This document shows positions 17,235 through 52,935 of a DNA stretch of 64,000 nt, piece by piece (position 1 is the stretch's first letter; each line of letters begins with the position of its first letter). Below the pieces are notes generated by a model. It worked only from the letters and a program-made list of their open reading frames with translations. It did no database searches and had not been told where the DNA came from. The position numbers were made by a program, and so were the translations under genes. The DNA comes from Xiphydria camelus. Taxonomy: Eukaryota; Arthropoda; Insecta; Hymenoptera; Xiphydriidae. The stretch lies in contig OY783198.1 of assembly GCA_963678675.1 (NCBI GenBank), positions 14,430,311 through 14,494,310 on the forward strand, given 5' to 3'.

Positions 17235-17970
17235 TACGTTTGCAACCCTTGTTCGCCAAACCGTATTACCTTTCTATTGTTTGTACCTGAGTTTTCATCC
17301 ATATTTTTGTTACACTACTAGTAGTATATAAAACAAAATAACAATAACCTTAGTCGAAAATTAAAAAGGTTAGGTTTGCTCTCTTCTAAAATTAATTACT
17401 GTCGTCACCACTAGAGTACAGTGTGTTCGGTGTTCCAACAGAAATCCCTGACTAGTCAAAGTCCGCACATGCGCACTACGTACAAATCACCAACTGTCAG
17501 GGATTAGTCACGGATTCTCTGCAGGAACAAACTTACTAATCCCAGGGGCCCCTTTCTCAAACTCACTCGCAAGAGAAACGTATACGTTTCTTAGCGAGTA
17601 GACCAATCAGGACCCCCACCACAACGGAATACTTGATCCTGATTGGTCTATTCGCTAAGATGCGTATACGTAACTTTTGCGAGTGACTCGAGAAAGGGGG
17701 CCCTGACAGTTGGTGATTTGTACGTAGTGCGCATGTGCGGACTTTGACTAGTCAGGGATTTCTGTTGGAACACCGAACGCACTGTACTCTAGTGGTGACG
17801 AGAGTAATTAATTTTAGAAGAGAGCAAACCTAACCTTTTTAATTTTCGACTAAGGTTATTGTTATTTTGTTTTATACACTACTAGTAGTGTAACAAAAAT
17901 ATGGATGAAAACTCAGATACAAACAATAGAAAAGTAATACGGTTTGGCGAACAAGGGTTGCAAACGTACA
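17235..17970. repeat. inner palindrome of the 12.9-19.0 kb structure
   Basis: GTTTGCAACCCTTGTTCGCC (17239) pairs with GGCGAACAAGGGTTGCAAAC (17946). The arms include AAAGTCCGCACATGCGCAC and its complement. The smaller core palindrome 17558-17703 sits at the centre. Confidence 0.85.
17558..17703. repeat. palindrome with GGATCAAGTATTCCG core, copy 2
   Basis: The right arm keeps ACAACGGAATACTTGATCC; the left half of the core is shortened. The outer arms, CACTCGCAAGAGAAACGTAT and its complement, differ from copy 1 and are shared with copies 3 and 4. Confidence 0.85.
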
Positions 17971-25305: not shown

Positions 25306-28300
25306 TCAGTTTAGATTCAGCATCTCTCGAAACTTTTCAAATTTTTCTCGACACAATGCCTTAGTAAAGATATCAGCTACATTTTCATCACTCTCAATCT
25401 TAACTACGTCTACAACTTTTTCTTTTACACAGTCATGTATATAATGATAGTGAACCTCTATATGCTTTGAATTCTTCGTAAAATTACCATTTCTCGCTAT
25501 ATCTATTGCACCAGAATTATCCTCATATACAATAATTGGTTTCGTTAATTCAACCTTGAAAAACTCTAACAATTTTTTTACAAGCTTCAATTCACTTACT
25601 GCTTCTGACAACGCTACATACTCTGCAAAAGTCGATGCTTTTGTAACACTCTTTTGTTTTCTCGATTTCCAATATACTACATTGCCCCATAATCTTAACA
25701 TATACCCAGTCGTGGATTTTCTATCCAAATTATCGCCGGCCCAATCGGCATCAACATAACAATCTACAACATTCATACTCTCACCCTTTTTATAAACCAA
25801 TTCCAAGTCTTTGGTTGAATACAAATACTTTAAAATCCTCAAAGCATACTTGTAGTGTGTCTCATTATAACATTCTTGAAACCTGCTTAGATAGTTTACG
25901 CTAAAACTTATATCTGGCCTTGTAGCCGAACTTATATAGAGTAACGCTCCAATTAAATTTCTGTATTTAATATTTCTCTCACAGTTATCCGCCCTTTCTA
26001 TTTTCAAATTCGCTTCCATGGGCGTATTATACAGCTTACTATTTTCCAAATTATACTTTCTAACTAGTGACTCGATATATTTGATTTGGTTTAATTTCAT
26101 CTTCTTTCCACTCGGCTCATACTGCACTGTAATTCCCAAATACTCTTTAATTTCTCCGAGATCTTTCATTTTAAATTTCTTTGATAATAGCAATTTAATT
26201 CTCTTAATCTCCTTCTTATTTTCACCACAAACCAATAAATCATCAACAAAGATTAATATGTAAATAGTATCGCTTCCATTTCTATAAGTATACAAACAAG
26301 GATCAATCTTGCTCTTTTCGAAACTCACACTCATCAAAAACTCATCTAAGCACTCATACCAAGCTCTTGGGCTCTCTTTTAAGCCATACAATGCTTTTAC
26401 TAATATGCAAACTTTATTTGAACCGTCTTCGTACCCTTTAGGTTGTTTCACGTATACCTCAGAGTTCACTCTACCATTCAAAAACGCAGTCTCAACATCC
26501 ATGTGTTCAATGTTCAGGCCCATTTGACAACAATATGCTAACAAAATTTTTAAAGTTTGCATCTTAGCTACAGGAGAATAAACATCATTTATTTCCTCAG
26601 TTTGTTGGAAGCCTCTAACAACTAATCTCGCTTTATACGTATCATCAGATTTTCTCGTATATACCCATTTTACATTCAACACTTTATTATTGTTTGTATT
26701 CTCAACTAACTTCCACGTGTTGTTTTTATTTAAACAATCAATTTCTTTGTTCATCGCTTTTCTCCAAAGATCACTCTCATTACTCTCAACCGCCTCCTCA
26801 AATGTATCAGGTGTGCTTGTATTACAAAAATTTGCAAAAATCTCACTATTATAAACATAGTATTCATTTAACTTCTTTGGTGGGTTTCTAGTTCGATCAG
26901 ACCTACGGGCAATTTCGTTTAAACTCTCATCCCTACTTTCGCTCATACTCTCGAAAGTTTCATTCAATGAATCATCATCCGACTTTTCGTCATTTTCATT
27001 ATTCGTATCATTATTCTCGTTACTCTCATTATCGGATTCCTCACTATCTAGACCGATACATTTTACATTTTCCTCAACGAACTCTACATGTCTAGCGACA
27101 ATTACTCTACAGTTTAGAAGTACGCGATACCCAACGTTACTATAACCAATTAGAATTCCCACATCAGCCTTTTTATCCCATTTTGATTCTCTTTTTAGCT
27201 CCGGTATTCTAACAAAAACCTTACTACCATATAAACGTAGATTCGATACATCCGGTCTCTTTCCGAAGAATATTTCAAACGGTGTCTTTTGCTCGATGGT
27301 TCTTGATAACGTACGATTCTTCAAATAGGTTGCCGCGCATACTATTTCAGGCCAGTACCGTCTATGTACATTAGCTTCTGCCAATAAGCAACGTGATACA
27401 TCCATTATTGTTCTATTAAATCGTTCCGCAGTTCCATTTAGCTGATGTACATAGGCAGGGCAATTATTAATAACAATTCCCTTTTCTCTTGCAAATCTAA
27501 ACATTGTACCATTCAAGTATTCTTTACCATTATCACATCTCAAAATCTTAATTCTCTTTCCTGTTAAATTTTCACATTCATTTACATATTCAATCAAACA
27601 ATCACACACTTCCGCTTTAGATTTTATAGTATACACTTTAGCGATTTTACTATAATCATCAATAAACGATAGAAAGTATTTCTCGCCTTGATACCCTACC
27701 GTTTTAAATGGTCCACACACGTCAGTGTGAACGATCTCTAAAATATCGTTCGCTCTCTCTCTATTATTTTCAAATGGTAAATCATGCATTTTGCTCTCCG
27801 TGCACGTTCTACATTTCATAAATTCCGATTCGATTTTACTTGGCATGCCATTTAACAATTGTTTCTTACACAGAGTGTCCAAATATCCAAAATTCACATG
27901 ACCCAGCAAGCGATGCCATTTCTCTTTCTCACTCACACTTTTTGTATTCTTATTTGCTACATTAACGCGCGATACAATATTCGTAGTTGACTCATCTGAT
28001 TTCAATTTACTTTTCATGATATATAATCCGTTCTCTTTCACAGCTACTGCAGTTACTTTACCAACACTATCAACAATTTTCGCAATTTTTCCTTTTGAAA
28101 CAATCGTATTCCTTTGTGTTATCTTGCTATAGCTTACTAAATTCGACTTCATATCTTTGACAAAGAAAACGTTCTCCATTTTAATCAAATTTCTTTTCCC
28201 AAAACTCTTAAAATAACTCTGTACATTACCGATTTTTGTTGCTTTTACATTTCTATTGTCACCCAAATACACATTTACGGGCTCTTTGAGTACAACATAC

Positions 28301-29295
28301 CTGTCAAACAAACTCTCATCATTTATAATATGATCTGTACAACCGCTATCTAGAAGCCACTGTATTTCATTTCCGTCTCGGCTACTTGACTGATTCTTCT
28401 GTGCCGCATTGTGCGCAACCGTCGTTGTCCACGCGCTGTTTTGTCCTCCATACGCCTGCTGCTGCTGATTCGTCTGATGTGTGCTTGACTCGCGCTGTCC
28501 CGAACGGAAACCACCGCGCCCTCTATAGCTTCCTCTTCCGGCTCCCTGCCGGCCTCGTGGTGCTCGCCATGTGCCTCGTCTACCCGACGCTTGACCGCCA
28601 TTTTTGCACTGCCTCTGAATATATCCTGTCTCTCCACAGCCGTAACATGTCTGATCTCTTTGTAACTTGTTTACGGTGAACACACTTGACTTTTTTTCAG
28701 AATTATCGTCTTTTTTATTTTTTATTTCAGCCATTTGTATTTTATTCTTCACATAATCAGCCGTCTGATCTTCTTCTTTGAGTGTATCAATCAAATCACC
28801 AATATAACTATACGACTCAGGCAACGTGTTTAACATATAAATCAGTTTCTCTTTCTCTGTTACCTTTGCACCAGCGCTTTTCAATTCGTTTACGGCCTTT
28901 TCAAAATCACTAAAGAACGTCGCCGTATCATTATAATCCTTGAGCTTTATCTTTTCCAGCTTATTTCTGCACACAATTTGTAACGCCGTTGACTCCTTTA
29001 GATACAAACTGTCCAGCTTTTTAATTATTTCGTACGCCGTCGTTTTCTCGCACACAAATTCTAACTGTTTATCCGATAATGCACTATACATATAATTTAT
29101 TGCCTTTAAGTCGTTTTCATCCCACGGATCTGCGTCTTCCTCCGTTTTTTCTCTCATAATTGCAGCTTCACATTTTTTCATTTTCAAAAACATTATGATT
29201 CGTTTTTTCCACATCCCATAATTCTCCCCATCGAACACGGGTATTCTTATCTCATTTTTCGCCATCTTGTGTCGCACGTGCTTTCCTACGTACAC
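25306..29295 (-). CDS. copia Gag-Pol polyprotein, 1329 codons
   Basis: A single open frame in the order Gag, protease, integrase, RT, RNase H, typical of Ty1/copia. Gag starts near MAKNEIRIPVFDGENYG (residue 11, a likelier start than codon 1). The zinc knuckle (about residues 217-230) reads CYGCGETGYIQRQC, with Tyr where CCHC has His. Protease DSGC is near 317. Integrase has HRLLGH and CRTC (HHCC), then VHTDVCGP, LRCDNGKEY and GTAERFNRT for the DDE triad (about 460-625). RT has FVDDLLVCG near 1020. RNase H has DADWAGD, FAEYVALSEA and YEDNSGAID (from ~1180). The knuckle change is the only conserved-residue loss noticed. Confidence 0.95.
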   Translation of the reverse strand: MYVGKHVRHKMAKNEIRIPVFDGENYGMWKKRIIMFLKMKKCEAAIMREKTEEDADPWDENDLKAINYMYSALSDKQLEFVCEKTTAYEIIKKLDSLYLKESTALQIVCRNKLEKIKLKDYNDTATFFSDFEKAVNELKSAGAKVTEKEKLIYMLNTLPESYSYIGDLIDTLKEEDQTADYVKNKIQMAEIKNKKDDNSEKKSSVFTVNKLQRDQTCYGCGETGYIQRQCKNGGQASGRRGTWRAPRGRQGAGRGSYRGRGGFRSGQRESSTHQTNQQQQAYGGQNSAWTTTVAHNAAQKNQSSSRDGNEIQWLLDSGCTDHIINDESLFDRYVVLKEPVNVYLGDNRNVKATKIGNVQSYFKSFGKRNLIKMENVFFVKDMKSNLVSYSKITQRNTIVSKGKIAKIVDSVGKVTAVAVKENGLYIMKSKLKSDESTTNIVSRVNVANKNTKSVSEKEKWHRLLGHVNFGYLDTLCKKQLLNGMPSKIESEFMKCRTCTESKMHDLPFENNRERANDILEIVHTDVCGPFKTVGYQGEKYFLSFIDDYSKIAKVYTIKSKAEVCDCLIEYVNECENLTGKRIKILRCDNGKEYLNGTMFRFAREKGIVINNCPAYVHQLNGTAERFNRTIMDVSRCLLAEANVHRRYWPEIVCAATYLKNRTLSRTIEQKTPFEIFFGKRPDVSNLRLYGSKVFVRIPELKRESKWDKKADVGILIGYSNVGYRVLLNCRVIVARHVEFVEENVKCIGLDSEESDNESNENNDTNNENDEKSDDDSLNETFESMSESRDESLNEIARRSDRTRNPPKKLNEYYVYNSEIFANFCNTSTPDTFEEAVESNESDLWRKAMNKEIDCLNKNNTWKLVENTNNNKVLNVKWVYTRKSDDTYKARLVVRGFQQTEEINDVYSPVAKMQTLKILLAYCCQMGLNIEHMDVETAFLNGRVNSEVYVKQPKGYEDGSNKVCILVKALYGLKESPRAWYECLDEFLMSVSFEKSKIDPCLYTYRNGSDTIYILIFVDDLLVCGENKKEIKRIKLLLSKKFKMKDLGEIKEYLGITVQYEPSGKKMKLNQIKYIESLVRKYNLENSKLYNTPMEANLKIERADNCERNIKYRNLIGALLYISSATRPDISFSVNYLSRFQECYNETHYKYALRILKYLYSTKDLELVYKKGESMNVVDCYVDADWAGDNLDRKSTTGYMLRLWGNVVYWKSRKQKSVTKASTFAEYVALSEAVSELKLVKKLLEFFKVELTKPIIVYEDNSGAIDIARNGNFTKNSKHIEVHYHYIHDCVKEKVVDVVKIESDENVADIFTKALCREKFEKFREMLNLN

Positions 29296-42484: not shown

Positions 42485-44311
42485 TTAATCCGCGATGCCT
42501 GCACCGTATAGTTGGCCTTCTATGTTAATGTTGAGTTCTTCTTCTTCTTTTCTGGCTGATTTTGCGGCAATTCGAGCTGTTTTTGCAGCCTCAGTCAGCG
42601 ATCGGTTCGAAAAATCGACGCGGAGTTCGTCCGCCTCAACGCAGAAATTGTAGCAATTCCTTCCAACTGTCATGTCCAACTGTCGTATAACTTGCATTAT
42701 ACTACAAATTCCATCGTTGAAAGTGCACACGGCAAGATTCTCAGCAATATCCAGTACGGTTTTTCCGCTTGACGTAGATTTTGGGGACATTGACCACACC
42801 GTTGCGTTGAAACTTTCATTGCTATTTTGCGTAAAACCACCTAAGCATCGATTTAGAAGGTCGTCGCTGCTCAACTCTTCGTAGATTGGTTTAATTGCGT
42901 CAAAAACTGTTTTCGATAGAGCCGGCTTGTGTAAAAAAGTACTAATTGATGTATTGGTGGCTTTTGCCTTTTGCCACGAACACCATGAATTTTCACCAGC
43001 TGGACACTTGCTGTGTTGAGGATTTTCATTCGTTGACAGCTTGTGATATAACGTCGCCCAAATTTCATTTCTCATTTTTTCCACAGAGTCGTGATTTCTG
43101 CGAATAGCCAAACCATAATAAATTGAGAGCTCGTCGACAAGTTTATTTGTTAATTTTCCTTTTCCGCCGAGACCGCGTACGTTCTTTTTTAAATTTCTTA
43201 GTCTAGTGCCCATTCTTTTCTGCACGTGATCGATACATTCTTTTTTATGTATAACAAAGCTTTCATATGGTTCAGACTTCAAAAGACCTGTAAAGGTTTT
43301 ACTATCGCCATCTCCAATGTAACTGCCGTATTTTACTTGATATAAAGTTTCAGAGCGCTGAAACATTTCGATAACTGCATCTACCTCCATTTTACCAGCC
43401 GACCCCGTGTGATTTATTTGACAATCATTTTGATGTATTTCAAGCCACTCATCATACTCTGCAGTATCACTTATTTTTCTCCAATATTCGCACGCCTTGC
43501 AGTAACTGGATTTTATAATTATATCGATTACTTTCCCAGTATTCCATCCGATCAAAGACACCAAACCGAACAATGATGAAAATCCCCGCTTTCTCCACGA
43601 ACCGTCTCCTGATACTATCAATTCATTTGGTAAACCTTTTCTTGCATTTTCTTCTTTTTCTATTTTTACTGCATTTTCCATGCTAGCCTTGGAAACGCGT
43701 TCAGTAGCATCACAAATAATGTTGACTACTTTATCATAAAATGAGTGAAATATTGGCCGAGGAAGTTCCATAAAAGCACAGAACTTCTTCATTCCGTGTA
43801 AACCTACTCCAAGCAGTCGCATGGCTATAATAATTCTTCTATTGATGTCATATGCTTTGTTATTGATGAGTGGACAATTTGGAATTTCAGTTTTCGCACA
43901 CTTTTCACAAGATAGAACTATTTTAAAACCAAGTCCGCGTATACTACTTTCAGTAAATGTGACGCCTGAGTCGCATATTTTACACTTCACTACTGACGAA
44001 ATTGTTGAAAAAACAGCCACAAAATTGATGAAACGATAACCGAACGATGCATCAACTTCGATATTACGAGCATCGCCACTTAGCTTCAATTTCCTAGCGG
44101 ACGTGCCGACGCTTTCGGAGGAATCGAGTGCCTCCGCTTCATAACGGTTTGCAGGTCGCTTTCGTGACATAGACGGCTTTTTAAACAAACTTCTTCCACC
44201 TCGTTTAGCTTTATAGCCATCATATTTCGATTTATCACACATTTTATTCACTAATTTCAGTAACTCGTAGTAAAAAGATAAACTGATGAAACACGAAGCA
44301 AAATCACGCAC
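42485..44311 (-). CDS. Kolobok/Mutator-like DDE transposase, intact 608 codons
   Basis: Cut-and-paste transposase acting on TTAA sites. Codon 1 is at 44311; MCDKSKYDGYKAKRG at codon 24 (44242) is an alternative start. A basic N-terminus is followed by zinc-binding CKICDSG...CEKCAKTEIPNCPL (about residues 105-145). The first catalytic Asp is in SGDGSWRKRG (~233) and the second in SYIGDGDSKTF (~335). Next is ECIDHVQKRMG (~355), the C(2)H motif found between the second Asp and the Glu in Kolobok, MULE and hAT-like transposases. The final Glu cannot be fixed by eye. No stop or frameshift was seen, so the element may be autonomous or recently active. Confidence 0.85.
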   Translation of the reverse strand: MRDFASCFISLSFYYELLKLVNKMCDKSKYDGYKAKRGGRSLFKKPSMSRKRPANRYEAEALDSSESVGTSARKLKLSGDARNIEVDASFGYRFINFVAVFSTISSVVKCKICDSGVTFTESSIRGLGFKIVLSCEKCAKTEIPNCPLINNKAYDINRRIIIAMRLLGVGLHGMKKFCAFMELPRPIFHSFYDKVVNIICDATERVSKASMENAVKIEKEENARKGLPNELIVSGDGSWRKRGFSSLFGLVSLIGWNTGKVIDIIIKSSYCKACEYWRKISDTAEYDEWLEIHQNDCQINHTGSAGKMEVDAVIEMFQRSETLYQVKYGSYIGDGDSKTFTGLLKSEPYESFVIHKKECIDHVQKRMGTRLRNLKKNVRGLGGKGKLTNKLVDELSIYYGLAIRRNHDSVEKMRNEIWATLYHKLSTNENPQHSKCPAGENSWCSWQKAKATNTSISTFLHKPALSKTVFDAIKPIYEELSSDDLLNRCLGGFTQNSNESFNATVWSMSPKSTSSGKTVLDIAENLAVCTFNDGICSIMQVIRQLDMTVGRNCYNFCVEADELRVDFSNRSLTEAAKTARIAAKSARKEEEELNINIEGQLYGAGIAD

Positions 44312-44776: not shown

Positions 44777-44991
44777 TACACCTTTGAGCTCAGATTCTAA
44801 TCATGGGGCATTTTCAAAATGTAATTTTGAAACGTAACAGCCAATTAGCAATTAAATCTCATACTTTCATTAGCTAATGCGGCCTTTGCCCTGGCTAATG
44901 AAAGCATGATAATTAATTATTCATTGGTTAGTATATTGAAATATGACATTTTGAAAATTCCCCATGATTAGAATCTGAGCTCGAGGGTGTA
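44777..44991. mobile_element. GGGTGTACA-family foldback MITE, variant arms
   Basis: The outer arms TTTGAGCTCAGATTCTAATC / complement differ from other copies, while the core GCTTTCATTAGC...AATTATTCATTGGTTAGT is retained. Its right end (GGTGTAC) overlaps the TA at the start of the next element. Confidence 0.8.
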
Positions 44992-45299
44992 CCATATATC
45001 CGCGATCAAAGCACCCATAGCAAAATTGCGAGTTTTGTATGAGCACCCCTGTGGGCTCCTCGTCCAATAGAATAACCGGAGAAGCGTGAATGCGCATGCG
45101 TAGTCATCCGCGTGTGTTGGCGTTGTCAGCAAGTTCAGATCGGTTTCCGTGGAATGTTTTGATCAAGGAGGCGTATTAGGTTAAATAGGCATATTAGGTT
45201 AAGAAAGTGTTATTTAACGCGAGCGCGAGTTAATTAGAAGATTGTCGTGAAGAAACTCTTAGAAGTAAGAGCTTACGGGAAGAAAAAGATATCGAGCTT

Positions 45300-45850
45300 T
45301 CCGCAAGGAAGGGTAAGTGTAATACTTAATGTAATGAAAATAATATCAAAAGGTATGTGGATCGAAAAGTTTTATTATTTTTTCATATCCTTGTATTTCA
45401 TATGGTTACAGGTCTAGCGCTCAGTCGTGCAGCCGTCATGGAACAATTGCCTTGAGGAGCTAGGCAATGCCCAACGACTCGAGGTACACGACTGCTTTGT
45501 CGACTTGGAGGCGAGCGACAAAGGGAAGAAGACTAGAGCTATTCGTCATTGCAGCTGCTCAGCTATCAAGTGAGTAATATTCCTGAGCTTCCAGTAGCCT
45601 TTGACACACACACAAATCAATTAATATTTCATAAGATATATTAGATCGGGTTTGCATTTCAGGTTAGACGATTGAAATTTGGTACCCCACAGTTTGCATC
45701 ACAGAGCAGTTATCCAATCATCACTGAAGAGTACCACAAGTGAGTAACGTCCCTGAGCTTAACAATAATCAGCGAAAAAAAATTAATATTCTTTGAAGAG
45801 TATTATATCGAATTTGCATTTCAGATCAGAGGAAGGAGCGTAAAATCTGG
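45300..45850 (+). other. spliced non-coding exon units in the left arm
   Basis: GAAGG|GTAAGTG donor (~45311), then GGTTACAG|GTCTAGCG...TATCAA|GTGAGTAA, then CATTTCAG|GTTAGACG...CCACAA|GTGAGTAA, then CATTTCAG|ATCAGAGG. Two successive introns share GTGAGTAAYRTYCCTGAGCTT and ATTTGCATTTCAG. No long frame, so likely a spliced 5' leader reading toward the transposase. A mirror copy lies at 53105-53520. Confidence 0.5.
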
Positions 45851-46603
45851 TGCCCGACAGGCTATGTCGTAGGACCGTGCCGAGCAATCCAGTCGTCATT
45901 GAAGATTTGGCTCCACATCTCACGAAGACTCTTCGACAGCGATATCCAACGTTTGAGAGAGATGTGCATGTTTTCTCTGGTGCATCGACAATGCAATTTC
46001 TATAATACCGCTCTACACGATGTTATTCCTTTTCGATTCTTTTTTACATTTCACGTTTTGTTGCTATCTACATTCTGGTGATATTTATATATACTTTAAT
46101 CTTCATCTAATTATATCTTTATTTACAATGTTCCTTTTAGTCTATGAGATTTTGTTTGTTTTCCTCTGCATCTCTATATCTGTATATTAACTATTTTAAA
46201 TCTGGCTAATAAATTAATTTTTCCATATTTGAGGTATTTTAGCTCCTTGGTTCCATTAATTCCTTTTCTTCCTTTTCTCAATTTAGCCAGTAAGATTTTG
46301 TTTGTTCTTTTTTCGTATCTCTCTATGTGTGTATATTATCCTTCTTTAATCTGGCTAATAAATTAATGTTTCCGTATTTCATTTCTGGTTACAAAACTGT
46401 GGAGTATATTTCCGTCGGCAGGTAGGAGGGAAGGGATTAATTTTTATTTTAATGCTCCGAATTGTTTTTACGGGTGAATTTTATAGTGGCACTGAAAAGA
46501 GCCATTTTTCGCGCCACTAAAAAAACAAAAGATCAGCGACGCTGATTTAATCCGAAAATTTTATCTCGATTATTGACAGCGTGTCTTACCGAGTGCGATC
46601 GTT

Positions 46604-47852
46604 TTGATTATTAATTGGTTTTTAATAGCGAAAATTGTTCGTTATACAAATGAAGAGAAAGCAGATCTCATGCTCTTACTAGGGCACTGTAGCCTGAGGG
46701 AAACGAGTAGGATTTTCCGACAGCGTCATCCGATGAGACCAGGTCCTAGCACGTCCATGCTCCGCAAACTGCTAAGCAAATTCCGTCGGACGGGTTCAAC
46801 GACGAACCTTACAGGTTTGGGACGTCCTTCCATCAGGGACCCAAACTGCGAGGCAGTCGTCCTCGGTTCCGTTGCAGAGGAAATGCAGTTATCGGTGAGG
46901 CGTATTGAGAGGGATACTGGGATATCGAAGACGACAGTTCACAAGATCCTCCGGCAACATCGTAACAAACCGTTTAAGGGTCGTGTTCACCAGAGCCCCC
47001 TTTCTCGAGTCACTCGCAGGAGAAACGTATACGTTTCTTAGCGAGTAGACCAATGAGGACCTCCACCACAACGGAATACTTGATCCTGATTGGTCTATTC
47101 GCTGAGTTGCGTGCACGCAAAGATACGAGTGACTCGAGAAAGGCCCCGCAGGCCCTTACGGTGAACGACGAGGCGTGTCGTTTGACATTTTGCCGGGAGA
47201 TCTTGAGAAGAGTAGCCGCTGACCAAACGTACGTCGCTAAAATTTGTTTTAGCGACGAATGTACGTTCTGGACAAATGGTGAAGTTCGCTCGCATTATTA
47301 CCGGTATTGGGCGACGGAGAACCCTCACATTCTGCTACCATGTCGACATCAGGGTGCTGGCAAAGTCAACGTGTGGGTCGGTATGTGGAGGGACGTCATC
47401 ATTGGTCCAATTTTCTTTCAAGGCAACATGAATGCCGAGAGATATTTGGCCATGATGGAGGAGGAGGTCCTTCCGACACTTGTGAATGTTGCTGGAGAGG
47501 AAGACGTCATCTTCCAGCAGGATGGTGCTCCAGCGCATACAAGTGTTCGTGTCCGCTAGTTCCTTGATATAGTTTTCGGAGAAAACTGGATAGGACTGCG
47601 TGGACCGACGGAATGGCCTCCCAGATCTCCGGACCGCACTCCTCTCGATTTTTCCTCTGGGGCTACCTGAAGAGAAGAATCTTCAACAGGCCGCAAATTA
47701 ATGGAACCGAGGAGTTTAAGAACCTCATTCGTATGGAGTGTGCAGCAATAACGGCAGAGACCCTAAGAAAGGTCCGCCCAAGCTTCCACAGAAGAGTTAC
47801 GATGGTGTGCCAGCAGAATATCAATGGTGGCCATATTGAACACTTGTTATAG
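46604..47852 (+). pseudogene. DD41D transposase 1, interrupted
   Basis: Part 1 (46604-46996) has the paired-like HTH region (YTNEEKADLMLLLGHCSLRE, GRPSIRD, TGISKTTVHKIL). A 151-bp palindrome then interrupts. Part 2 (from 47148) has the first Asp in CFSDECTFW, then KVNVWVGMW and the second Asp in FQQDGAPAHTS. An in-frame TAG sits at 47557. The third Asp is in TPLDFF, 41 residues after the second, giving DD41D (rosa-like). A 1-nt frameshift near 47650 precedes LWGYLKRRIFNRPQINGTEE, and the stop is at 47850-47852. Not functional as it stands. A histone-type stem-loop follows. Confidence 0.85.
46997..47147. mobile_element. palindrome with GGATCAAGTATTCCG core, copy 4, inside a transposase ORF
   Basis: Arms CTTTCTCGAGTCACTCGC / complement. 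The flanks CACCAG and CAGGCC are consistent with a CAG duplication, and removing the insert restores reading frame between GRVHQ and ALTVNDE. This is good evidence that this family transposes. Confidence 0.8.
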
Positions 47853-47914
47853 AAGCTTCGCCGCCGTCTGATCGATCCAGTCGGCACTCACGTTTTCAAT
47901 GGCGCGAAAAAAAT

Positions 47915-47930
47915 GGCTCTTTTCAGAGCC
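47915..47930 (+). terminator. histone-type mRNA 3' stem-loop
   Basis: GGCTCTTTTCAGAGCC is a perfect match to the replication-dependent histone stem-loop (GGYYCUUUUCAGRRCC). A-rich sequence precedes it and ACCA follows. It lies 62 nt after the transposase stop, a typical histone spacing, with no AATAAA between. The mirror site in the other terminal repeat (46484-46503, minus) has one mismatch in the stem. No clear purine-rich U7-type downstream element was seen. Confidence 0.75.
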
Positions 47931-48162
47931 ACCATAAAATTCGCACGTAGGAACGAATCGGGGTGTTAAAATAAAAATTAGTCCTTTCCCTCCTACCTGT
48001 CGACGAAAATATACTCCACGATTTTCTAATCAAAGATGAAATATGGAAAAATTAATTTATTAGCCAGATTTAAAATAGTTAATATACAGATATAGAGATG
48101 CAGAGGAAAACAAACAAAACCTCATAGACTAAAAGGAACATTGTAAGTAAAGATATAAAGTT

Positions 48163-48398: not shown

Positions 48399-49544
48399 AT
48401 GGTACCGGGGTATGGTATCGTGAACGGTGCCCTTGGGGCAACAGGTCGAACCCCATTGTATCTAGACCTTACCTGGGCATTCGAGGCTCTACCCAGGCGG
48501 ACAGTATATTTCCTCGGTACTCGTGGGATTTTCATGGCAGAATCTTTAAAAAATCTTTTATCTCAGGGGTCCACTGGAAACCTGAAGGAAAAATCAGTAG
48601 AGGAGGGCGCGAAAACGAACTTCTCTATAGTACTGGGGGGTAACACCCAGGGAAAAGCCACAGTAACTGATGGGAAAATAGAGGAGGTCACCAAAACGGT
48701 GGGAGACCTCTCTCTGGAAAAGAAGAAGCCCAGTGGGGCTCAGAGGAAGAAGTGGAGACGTGAGAGGGAAGAGGGTGAAAGGCTGAAACTCTCTGGCGGT
48801 GAGAGGGGGAAGCAGAAGACCCCAGCTCCAAAAAGAACGAGACCGGCGGAGGAGACTCCTCCGTCGGGGGACCAACACAGAAAGCGCGCCAAGAGGCATG
48901 AGTTCTCCGGATCTCATGCTGATGTGGTGGCCGGACTTCCACGGATGGTTATCGCACAGCGAGGATTGGAGAAGGGTCTCACGGCGGAACAGGCGGAGCT
49001 CGTAATTGAGGCGATGCTTGGGGCCATCGATGAGATCGAGGATGGAGGGTTCATTCTGAAATTTCGGGAGACCCATTATTTCCGGGAGACCGTTAGGTTA
49101 ACCTGTGCGGATGAGCAGTCGAAGGAATGGCTGAGGGAGAAAGCACCGCTCTTCGGGGGGTGGGAAGGAGCGGATCTGATTGCCATGGGTTTAGATGAGC
49201 TACCAAAGCTTGTCAGGACCATGGCATACTTCCCTCACCCCGGTAAAGAAGTGGAGGCGAGGACGCTTCTCAATAGAATTGAGAGGCAAAACCCGACCCT
49301 CTCTCTAAAGACGAGGAAATGGCAGGTATACGAACCGCCCAGCGTTTGCGGGGAGTCGAATACGGTCAGACTCGTGTTAGGAGTCGAGGAAGAGGCCATC
49401 AATGAGATGGAAAAGATGGGAATGAAGCCCTACTGTGGAGTCGGAAGGGCATCCTTCCAGATTCTAAGGCAGGGGACGAAGAAGGATCGTGGGGAGGAAA
49501 ATATGAACCTGGACCAGGATCAGGTGAGTGCACAAGATGGCTAA
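48399..49544 (+). CDS. LINE ORF1 (381 codons), nucleic-acid-binding protein
   Basis: A first region of low complexity, then a strongly basic stretch (QRKKWRREREEGERLK, APKRTRPAEETPP, HRKRAKRHE; residues ~105-170). A conserved-looking C-terminal region follows (VIAQRGLEKGLTAEQAELVI, LKFRETHYFRETVRLTCAD, SVCGESNTVRLVLGVEEEA). The latter resembles DUF4780 seen in insect LINE ORF1 proteins; assignment from memory. No CCHC knuckle was seen. It ends 8 bp before ORF2 opens. Confidence 0.75.
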   Translation: MVPGYGIVNGALGATGRTPLYLDLTWAFEALPRRTVYFLGTRGIFMAESLKNLLSQGSTGNLKEKSVEEGAKTNFSIVLGGNTQGKATVTDGKIEEVTKTVGDLSLEKKKPSGAQRKKWRREREEGERLKLSGGERGKQKTPAPKRTRPAEETPPSGDQHRKRAKRHEFSGSHADVVAGLPRMVIAQRGLEKGLTAEQAELVIEAMLGAIDEIEDGGFILKFRETHYFRETVRLTCADEQSKEWLREKAPLFGGWEGADLIAMGLDELPKLVRTMAYFPHPGKEVEARTLLNRIERQNPTLSLKTRKWQVYEPPSVCGESNTVRLVLGVEEEAINEMEKMGMKPYCGVGRASFQILRQGTKKDRGEENMNLDQDQVSAQDG

Positions 49545-49552
49545 ACGCCTGA

Positions 49553-52500
49553 GTGATTCAAATTAATCTACACCGCGGTCCAGCGGCTGCGGGGTTGTTG
49601 AAACGTAAGATGATTCGTGAGGGCATCGACATTGCTCTGATTCAGGAACCTTGGGTCTTCAAGGGACGGATCAGAGGGGATGGTGTGGATCATGGGGAAT
49701 TGTTTTACTGTATGAAGTCTGATTGCAGACCGAGAGCAGCAGTTCTGGTAAGAAACGCTGCGGCGATGCCGCTGGGGGAGCACATTAGTGCGGTCCAAGC
49801 GGCTGTCAAGATGAACATCGTGGAGGGAGGAGATCTCAAGGAGGTTGTTGTGGCGTCAGTCTACATGCCCTTTGAGGCTCTGGACCCTCCATCGGAGGAT
49901 TTCCGCAGGCTGGTGAGGGACTGCGAGAAAAATGGCTGGAACATGCTGGTGGGATGCGACGCGAACAGCCATCACACGGTATGGGGCAGCACTGATGTCA
50001 ACAAGAGAGGAGAGTCTCTCTTGGAGATACTTATGGACATATCGCTGGACATAATTAACAGAGGTAGGTCCTATACCTTTAAGAATGCAAAAAGGGAAGA
50101 GGTGATTGACCTAAGATTATGCAGCTCTCGGTTTAGCGCAAATGTTGAGGGATGGATGGTATCGGATGATCCGTCATTGTCGGATCATAGGTCCATTAGA
50201 TTTGATGTCATGGGTGACATCACGAGTAGTAAGTCTAGGTGCTTCAGGAACCCGCGTAACACGAGGTGGGAAATTTTTCTGGAAGACCTGGAGCAGAAGA
50301 TGCTTTCTTTTCCGAGGAGGTACGGCACTCCCGAGGAGATCGACCGGGCAGTGCGGATTGTGACTGACGCTGTGCGGGAGTCCTTTGAGGGAAGCTGCCC
50401 ACTGAAGGAAAGAAAGATAAATGAGGTGTCGTGGTGGAATGAGGAGTTATCGAAACTACGACAAGAGGTGAGGAAAGCCCGCAACAGGGCTAGAAATATT
50501 AGACTGCAGAGAGACTTAGAGAAATCTAAGGATCTTCAAAGGCGGTATAGGTTTAAGACTAGGGAAGCGCAGAGGGTCTCATGGAATGGATTCCTGAAAA
50601 GAATGGAAGATATTCCTGAGACGGCCAGACTCTGCAAGCTTCTATCTAGAGAAGGACCAGCTGCCACTGGCTCCTTCCAGAAGAGTGATGGGAAGTTCAC
50701 TCAATCCTGGGAGGAGGAGGTGATCGAGCTGTTGAAGAAACATTTTCCTGGATACATGAGATTGGAAGGGGTGGAGCTGGACAGGGAGTCTCCCAATCTT
50801 TTTGGGAGCGCGACCTGTGATTGGTTCGCGGCCTCCAAGATCGTGACCCAGGAAAAGGTGAGGGAGGCGATAAAGAGTTTCGATCCCTATAAAAGTCCGG
50901 GGGAGGATGGGATCTATCCTATTCTCTTGCAGAAGGGGGTAGATATCCTGGCAGGCCCCCTGACAAAGATATACCGGGCAAGTGTTGCCACAGGGTATGT
51001 GCCGGCAGCTTGGGGAAGGACCAAGGTGGTCTTTATCCCGAAACCAGGCAGGGGTGACTACACGAAACCGGGTAGTTTCAGGCCAATCAGTTTAACATCA
51101 TTCCTTTTAAAGGTTCATGAGAGACTGATTGAGAGGTTTATCAAAGAGGGGGCGCTCGTGGAGTATCCTCTCCATCCAAGACAGTTTGCCTATCAAGCAG
51201 GGAGATCCGTTGAAATGGCATTGCACTGTTTGGTAGGCAGAGCTGAGAAAGAAATGCAAGATGGGGACATAGTGTGTGGACTCTTTGCAGACATAGAGGG
51301 GGCCTTTAATTGGACCTCTTATGAGGTAATTGATCAGAGCGCTGAGAGACACGGGGTGCATCCAACGATTAGACGATGGATTGCATCCATGTTGAAGATC
51401 AGGAGGCTCTCGGTTCAGAGAGGAGACTTCAGGATGGGAGTGGCGGCTGTCAGAGGATGTCCGCAGGGGGGGTTTTGTCACCTCTTCTGTGGAATCTGGT
51501 GATGGATGAGCTTATTCGCAGACGGGAGGAGGCTGGAATATACGCCCAAGGATATGCAGATGATGTATGTGTCCTTGTGGCTGGGAAATTTGCAGATGTG
51601 GTGAGGGGACTGATAGTCACCTCACTAGATGTGATAGGGCAATGGTGCGAGAGGACGGGCCTATCCGTGAATCCGGAGAAAATAGAACTGATCCTCTTCA
51701 CCAGAAGGAGGAAACTAGACGGTTGGAGAAATCCAAACTTCCTAGGAGAGGAATTGATTCCGAAAAGGGCAGTGAAATATCTGGGAGTATTCCTAGATGA
51801 GAAGCTGAACTGGAGTAAACACGTGGACTACATCCGTAGTAAGGCCTGCTCAATACTCTGCGTTACCAGAAGGATATGCGGGAGAACGTGGAGGAGAGCC
51901 GGGCAGAAAATAGCTGGGGAGAAACTGGATCACGTGAGGGCCATGGCCCACAGAGCTATTACGGGAGCAATGAGGACGACGCCGATCTCGGCTCTGGGGA
52001 TGCTTGTTGGGCTCCCCCCAGTGAGGATCGAGGTGGAAGCGTCGGCCATGCTCGCGGCGTACTGGGTAAAACTGAACGGGGAGTGGAGGGGATCTGGAGT
52101 GGGACACTCGAAGATCCTTACTCTGCTGGAAGACAGGATACCAGGAATAAATGGCTTGCAGGATTATATCCGATGCAAGCATAGGTACAACCGTAAATAC
52201 GGAGTGGAATATCCAGAGAGGGCTCAGTGGAAGGATGAAAAACGACTCCTGGGAAGAGCTGATCAGATCTGGTTCACGGACGGATCAAAAATTAACGAAG
52301 CGGTGGGATCCGGTTTTCATAAGCAGAACTCCAAGAAGGAATGTAGTTTCAGATTGGAGGAACACTGCACTGTCTTTCAGGCGGAGCTAATGGCCATACA
52401 CGTCTGTGCACGGGATGTGGTGCAGGAAGGGGTATGGCATAAGCGTATTGTGATCTGCTCAGATAGTCAGGCTGCCTTGAAGGCTCTTGAAAATCTGAGT

Positions 52501-52935
52501 ATGAGAACAGAGATTATCGCGAGGAGAGGAGCCGAAGGGTCACTCTACCTTCCGGGCACGGAGGTCGGAATGCCAAGACAGGCTGTCAAACGCTGTATCA
52601 AGGAATGGATCATTGAAAGAATGAACCAGGACTGGAAGGCGGCGGAAGGTATGAGACAATCCAAGATATTCATTAAAGAATGGAGCAGGAAGCGTACAGA
52701 TGAATTGATGAAGCTAGACAAAATGTCAATGAGGACTATGGTATCCATATATACGGGACAGTGTAGGCTTCGTAGACATATGAACATACTGGGCCAATCG
52801 GTCGAGGTAGACTGCAGGTTATGCGGAGAGGCCGAAGAGACGCCTGGGCATATTATCGATGATTGCCCAAGAATTGGGAGGAGAAGAACGGGAATCACGG
52901 GAAGGAACTTCCTTAGAGAAGAGGAATGTGGATAG
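49553..52935 (+). pseudogene. LINE ORF2: endonuclease, reverse transcriptase, RNase H
   Basis: Frame 1 (49553 to ~51472) has the APE-type endonuclease (INLHRGPAAAG, IQEPWVFKGR, GCDANSHHTVWGS, DDPSLSDHRSI) and the start of RT (SPGEDGIYPILLQ, FRPISLTSFLLKVHERLIER, DIEGAFN). At CCGCAGGGGGGG (51462-51472) one G appears missing, and RT continues in another frame (GGVLSPLLWNLVMDEL, GYADDVCVL), open to 52935. RNase H shows WFTDGSKI, FQAELMAIH and ICSDSQAAL, but the conserved GH...GNE...A tail is missing between IIARRGAEG and PRQAVKRC, suggesting a deletion. A C-terminal CRLCGEAEETPGHIIDDCP zinc motif is present. Confidence 0.9.

Follow-up and report, generated by a model that had tools for sequence, protein, structure and literature searches.

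Histone-type 3' end signals behind the transposase genes of a DD41D element and a pogo-type transposon in Xiphydria camelus

A DD41D transposon of the hymenopteran Xiphydria camelus carries, behind its transposase gene, what looks like a complete histone-type 3' end, with an A-rich flank, a stem-loop, ACCA, a spacer and a downstream element. The best explanation for this arrangement, to which we assign a probability of about 65% from the sequence evidence, is that the transposase mRNA undergoes histone-type 3'-end formation. In metazoans, ends of this type are, as far as is known, almost confined to the mRNAs of replication-dependent histone genes. A second transposon of the same genome, of the pogo type with a DDE_1 domain, carries such an end as well, which points to acquisition of the signal by two superfamilies.

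Results

The window, that is, the whole stretch of 64,000 nt analysed here (assembly GCA_963678675.1, contig OY783198.1, positions 14,430,311 to 14,494,310 of the forward strand), contains a dead copy of the DD41D transposon. Its transposase gene (46604..47852, plus strand) is broken into three open reading frame pieces, is interrupted by a 150-nt palindromic insertion (46999..47148, coordinates by arithmetic from the alignment) and ends at a TAG stop (47850-47852), so that the preliminary description of a transposase gene closed by a histone stem-loop stands for the stem-loop and needs correcting for the gene. The perfect stem-loop described there, GGCTCTTTTCAGAGCC, lies 62 nt past the stop (47915..47930, plus strand), with a 6-bp stem and a TTTC loop, and is followed directly by ACCA (47931..47934, plus strand), as is the case for the majority of histone ends examined here. 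The element has a stem-loop of the form GGCYCTTTTCAGRGCC in sense orientation behind its stop, which is what a histone-type 3' end has. The interval between stop and loop is free of AATAAA, as had been noted, but a possible ordinary poly(A) signal of this sequence is found 40 nt 3' of the loop (47970..47975, plus strand).

The stem-loop belongs to the right inverted-repeat arm (47904..48158), in which two repeat pairs overlap. The left arm (46111..46514), with a 60-nt internal duplication, holds an imperfect copy reading GGCTCTTTTCAGTGCC on the minus strand, where a single mismatch disrupts one stem pair; the one-mismatch copy had thus been recognized correctly, but it occupies 46488..46503 rather than 46484-46503. 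Farther out on the left side of the element, a stretch (44988..45730) shares homology with the terminal TIR region found in the young copies of 4 kb described below. Taken alone, the evidence for the stem-loop from the window is weak, because its 2 matches at no more than 3 mismatches, against 0.38 expected, are reached in 6 of 100 shuffles.

Palindromes similar to the 46999-47148 insertion occur at 17575 and 38046, and the core GAAACGTATACGTTTC is present at three places in the window. Neighbouring stretches at 42485-44311 and 25306-29295 (both minus strand) and at 48399-52935 (plus strand) contain a Mutator-like transposase, a copia-type polyprotein, a DUF4780 protein and a non-LTR-type endonuclease/reverse transcriptase.

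The genome (357 Mb in 38 contigs) contains 29 occurrences of the exact 16-mer and none of its reversed control. With the surroundings of every site inspected, all 29 occurrences are accounted for: 12 lie in histone loci or their relics and 17 in copies of the DD41D element, which bears out the earlier assignment of the signal to the element itself. Ten of the histone-locus matches come with H2B products, and the other two are a decayed H2B-like relic (L028) and a decayed H2A-like relic (L019). Those H2A and H4 genes of the histone loci that were inspected together with their products carry GGCCCTTTTCAGGGCC, a CCC/GGG stem. The likeness of the stem-loop to that of histone genes is real and not a product of chance.

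Measured against the Rfam histone 3' end model (RF00032, gathering score 34 bits), members of the DD41D family score 28.8-33.1 bits, including 31.6 for the intact copy L009 and 29.0 for the window site, all below the gathering score. Host histone ends in the same loci score 25.7-35.8 bits, with several H2B loci (32.0-33.6) also falling below 34, and the scores of the element thus lie within the host range. A covariance model trained only on 14 histone ends from this genome (R1) gives 27.8-38.1 bits for gene-type ends of the element, 37.9 bits for the window (over 47905-47959), and still 26.4 bits for the imperfect 5' copies; histone ends resembling the training set reach 49-74 bits, and three histone-locus stem-loops with no close relative in training reach 34.6, 34.0 and 15.9 bits. 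At the level of sequence, the histone-type nature proposed in the preliminary description is well supported by the host H2B 16-mer, the A-rich 5' flank, ACCA, the sense strand and the position 61-62 nt past the stop (61 nt in L009).

The downstream element is less distinct. Host histone genes carry a motif near +13 to +16 past the stem-loop (ACGAAGAAC, ACGATGGAA, ACGTTAGCT, TCGTTGGAC and others), and the window has a candidate, ACGTAGGAA, beginning at 47945; at +14, the motif of the element reads ACGTAGGAAC in the window (47945..47954, plus strand), ACGTAGAAAC in L009 and ACGTAAGAAC in L029. A profile of the 32 nt past histone stem-loops, aligned from the stem-loop end and compared with random genomic 38-mers, yields p = 0.001-0.007 for the DD41D element, or 0.016-0.11 once the random sequences are supplied with ACCA as well. 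The corresponding values are 0.001-0.002 and 0.02-0.027 for a more diverged lineage of the element, at most 0.001 and 0.002-0.013 for two left-out histone-locus ends, and 0.006 and 0.09 for the imperfect 5' copy of the window. A genuine H4 gene (L087) scores only 0.02, or 0.2 with ACCA given, so a weak profile score does not exclude function. A position weight matrix test of the DD41D downstream element gave p = 0.02-0.06, an unconstrained local-alignment test was not significant (p = 0.08-0.77), and a sequence-only model of the downstream element (R2) found no match in 6 loci. Motif frequencies were post hoc, chosen after the data had been seen, and the statistics for the DD41D family are only suggestive. 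The reported lack of a clear downstream element is therefore relieved in part, by a candidate motif at histone spacing whose statistics are modest.

According to PMC7026596, U7 pairs with the downstream element and processing in Drosophila is absolutely dependent on SLBP. We regard ACGTAGGAAC and ACGAAGGAG as candidate sequences for such U7 snRNA pairing. The RNA-binding domain of a host SLBP is present (PF15247, above cut-off, in two exon-like matches on contig C14). U7 snRNA was not found, with six matches to Rfam RF00066 at 20.3-22 bits against a cut-off of 34; two pattern searches combining an Sm site with the predicted anti-downstream-element sequence gave 103 places, of which 100 were listed, and 16 places, and none was accepted among 8 drawn from the first search and judged by eye and by Rfam.

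The intact copy L009 confirms the DD41D label, with 41 residues separating the second and third catalytic Asp. The transposase has a DUF4817 helix-turn-helix above cut-off and a DDE_3 match (E 6.3e-5, 23.3 bits) below the curated cut-off of 28.6 bits. Five copies at 98-100% protein identity, plus one at 89%, show no stop across 352 residues. Seven loci (L032-L038) are closely similar young copies, 6 of which can be traced end to end, with common termini starting TACCGTATGTCCGCG and differing flanks; TA at both element ends would fit a TA target site. The element at L038 is about 4.0 kb long, and its inverted repeats measure 1377 nt and are 99.2% identical: its right end, including the end of the open reading frame, has been duplicated onto the left, so that the previous left end is now internal. 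Derivatives of about 320 nt are built from the terminal 157 nt, 6 of them with exact termini at both ends, and the stem-loop lies outside them. The stem-loop is therefore unlikely to serve as a transposition site and, provided that these derivatives are mobilized by the same transposase, would be dispensable for transposition.

The outer arm of the element (L038 2972-3900; window approximately 45567-45833) shows two apparent exons with splice sites, encoding a short protein (LEASDERKKTWSYPSLQLLGYQ, VRQERLKFGIPYAMSQGG) with no Pfam match. At C14:11068141-11070792 and elsewhere, relatives at about 50% identity are found in pairs, two complete transposase genes facing in opposite directions at a distance of about 540 nt, which look as if inverted repeats had expanded over the gene.

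Conservation of the stem-loop was counted from a DNA similarity search with the L009 3' end (36 matches) rather than from exact 16-mer finds alone, with inspection of all matches spanning the stem-loop site and of diverged ones. On the gene side, the exact stem-loop is present in 4 out of 5 young intact copies, and in the fifth (C20:13967764), the loop-closing pair is changed from U-A to U-G with pairing kept. The exact stem-loop is retained in 17 of the 20 gene-type ends spanning the site, 13 of 14 young and 4 of 6 older, although these copies are related by descent and the counts are not independent; the older exact ends are those of the window, L012, L029 and L014, and the stem is broken in L076 and L078. 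None of 11 5'-type copies has a perfect stem: 4 read GGCTCTTTT(T)CAGTGCC, and 7, which are relics inside young copies, read GACTCTTTTCAGTG with a deletion. Intact DD41D ends display a single version of the stem. An exchange of T-A for C-G at the fourth stem pair distinguishes H2B from H2A/H4, and also the DD41D element from the pogo-type family, both being comparisons between lineages rather than within one.

The 36 matches include a more diverged lineage, L080, L081a and L081b (the latter a 26-nt fragment), and a search starting from this lineage gave 22 matches and led to L082. The lineage is 77-80% alike at the end of the open reading frame, with a 3' untranslated region that is mostly hardly alignable. 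The stem-loop site reads GGCTCTTTTCAGAATC in L081a and GGCCTTGTTCAGAGCT in L080, is present in a shortened form in L082 and is deleted in L081b (R1 scores of 18.9 bits for L081a and 13.9 bits for L082). That the site can still be read here indicates that the signal is as old as the clade and has decayed in old copies.

To cover loci with related transposases, we sampled 20 further loci from 116 protein matches, 19 at 40-53% protein identity and L061 at 82%, in which the stem-loop site is deleted. With E values of up to 5 allowed, RF00032 matches none of the 20, and the best 16-mer within 600 nt past the stop agrees at no more than 11 of 16 positions; in 8 of the 19 relatives at 40-53% identity, AATAAA occurs no farther than 300 nt from the stop. 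The stem-loop is hence specific to one clade, being absent from these relatives and lost in some dead copies. Its absence from other copies, which the preliminary description had named as evidence that would speak against its reading, accordingly holds for the 40-53% relatives and some dead copies, but not for the young ones. Elsewhere, homologues of the transposase number 1283 proteins, the best 120 of which are 36-43% identical.

A genome-wide search with RF00032, in which 75 of 48060 candidates were scored, gave at least 68 matches. By position, these 68 comprise 18 in the DD41D element, 11 in one dispersed family, 5 other dispersed sites, L086, L028 and 32 on C17, a contig that holds histone loci and whose matches were assigned by position rather than each inspected. 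The dispersed family (L083) has its 11 copies on C1, C10, C21, C24, C28 and C29, which are 98-100% identical over 161 nt of the 3' end and score 32.8-33.8 bits, under the gathering score. All 11 carry GGCCCTTTTCAGGGCC, which stands 31 nt past a stop and is followed by ACCA and by ACGAAGGAGTAC at +14; in the copy whose end was read, the downstream profile is better than all 3000 of 3000 random draws, whether or not ACCA is given.

Upstream and on the same strand, each of the 11 copies has a DDE_1 domain (PF03184; 5 full matches and 6 partial ones covering 56-177 of 177 positions), at a distance of 395-396 nt in ten copies and 714 nt in one, where an element end of roughly 320 nt is inserted between DDE_1 and the 3' end. 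In two copies, DDE_1 lies within an open frame of 521 aa. The protein C-terminus, read in the 411-nt end of one copy, is QKKITDFF, which has the form of a PCNA-box (PIP-box). Distance and frame arithmetic link this tail to DDE_1, its stop being calculated to lie in frame with the domain at 396 nt; the 56-aa tail has no Pfam match and no homologue. PMC5371812 gives the PIP-box as Qxx[I/L/M]xxF[F/Y] and reports that the Drosophila POGO transposase binds PCNA, with unclear functional relevance.

The best RF00032 matches of the genome, at 36.5-41 bits, are dispersed sites at C1:14803530-14803690 (L084) and C28:17497880-17498040 (L085), and by score, those at C1:17173663, C6:13168353 and C10:23409267 are perhaps of the same kind. 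Sites of this kind follow an apparent decayed coding stretch (L089) with a weak DUF1759 match below cut-off. At C21:6160520-6160680 (L086), a lone GGCTCTTTTTAGAGCC has a strong downstream profile, with 0 of 3000 random draws as good. The L084/L085 kind and L086 may be further transposons with histone-type ends.

Discussion

Should the transposase mRNA be processed in the histone manner, host SLBP and U7 snRNP would cut the pre-mRNA a few nucleotides past the stem-loop and leave an mRNA without a poly(A) tail. Limitation of such an mRNA to S phase would follow from the known behaviour of histone mRNA, and transposase would then be made mostly in S phase, presumably the time at which a cut-and-paste element gains copies, either by moving between replicated and unreplicated DNA or through repair from the sister. 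The suggestion of histone-like processing made in the preliminary description is strengthened by the second, independent transposon that ends in a like manner. A histone end in a single transposon might have been captured by accident. It is difficult to account, in the absence of a function, for two superfamilies that each have their own versions of the stem and downstream element right behind the stop of the transposase, and the sharing of one signal between them favours histone-type 3'-end formation. We consider it somewhat better than an even bet that at least two DNA transposon superfamilies independently took up the histone 3'-end pathway, giving tail-less, S-phase-limited transposase mRNAs, with the PCNA-box of the pogo-type family adding a tie to replication at a second level. 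In the DD41D case, the H2B version of the stem suggests that the signal may derive from an H2B gene.

Alternatively, an ancestor of the element may have captured, or by chance made, an H2B-like end that has since been inherited along with the inverted repeat, with the mRNA polyadenylated at a downstream AATAAA. We hold this to be unlikely, although several observations fit it. The stem is the H2B version (of the 12 exact matches at histone loci, 10 are clearly H2B, and the H2A and H4 genes inspected have CCC/GGG); the stem-loop lies within the inverted repeat and would be copied with it; and it has been lost in some old copies. AATAAA follows the loop by 130 nt in L009 and by 40 nt in the window copy, so that ordinary polyadenylation is possible. 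Against this stand the retention of a perfect stem in 17 of 20 gene-type ends but in 0 of 11 5'-type copies, their relatedness by descent notwithstanding, and the unrelated second transposon, whose own CCC/GGG stem and different downstream element past the stop would require two accidents.

It is improbable that the palindrome is instead a binding site for the transposase or a host factor in the inverted repeat, with only an incidental likeness to histone ends. Tc1/mariner transposases do bind their own repeats, and a similar sequence is present in both repeats of the element; yet the palindrome is broken in all 11 5' copies and lies outside the short derivatives with the same termini, the match extends beyond it to the loop and flanks, the 29 exact genomic copies are all in histone loci or the DD41D element, and the second family comes from another superfamily. 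A chance match, for which the shuffles of the window alone would leave room, is strongly disfavoured and very nearly negligible, given that 357 Mb holds no exact match outside histones and the DD41D element, that the reversed control gives none and that the second family has 11 copies.

Histone-type 3'-end formation of the transposase mRNA, which we favour over these alternatives, would set the element apart from its known relatives. It resembles DD41D (Visitor, VS) Tc1/mariner elements in the 41-residue spacing of the last two catalytic Asp, with a transposase of 352 aa, and differs from them in its histone-type 3' end. In bees, DD41D/VS elements of 1024-2258 bp are described in PMC8472432, whereas the young copies here reach about 4.0 kb, and their inverted repeats, 1377 nt in length, take in the end of the open reading frame. 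Like host H2B genes, the element has the identical 16-nt stem-loop, an A-rich flank, ACCA and a short distance from the stop, and it shares with histone genes a candidate downstream element at +14 (most histones, +13 to +16). Unlike histone genes, it encodes a transposase, its downstream element is weaker, and the distance from stop to stem-loop is 61-62 nt, against 19-47 nt in the histones measured.

Pogo elements are not known to us to end in this way. The second family resembles pogo/Tigger-type elements in its upstream DDE_1 domain (PF03184) and in QKKITDFF, which fits the pogo PIP-box form as given in PMC5371812, and differs from them in ending in a histone-type signal. The openly available part of the literature, outside which most subscription papers lie, listed no transposon, pogo included, described as carrying a histone stem-loop.

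If histone-type processing is confirmed, selfish DNA would possess a simple switch at the RNA level, restricting transposase to the part of the cell cycle when cut-and-paste elements can gain copies, and these elements would provide a natural test of the SLBP and U7 requirements in a non-histone gene. Such elements would also be invisible in poly(A)-selected RNA-seq, which would bias measures of transposon activity.
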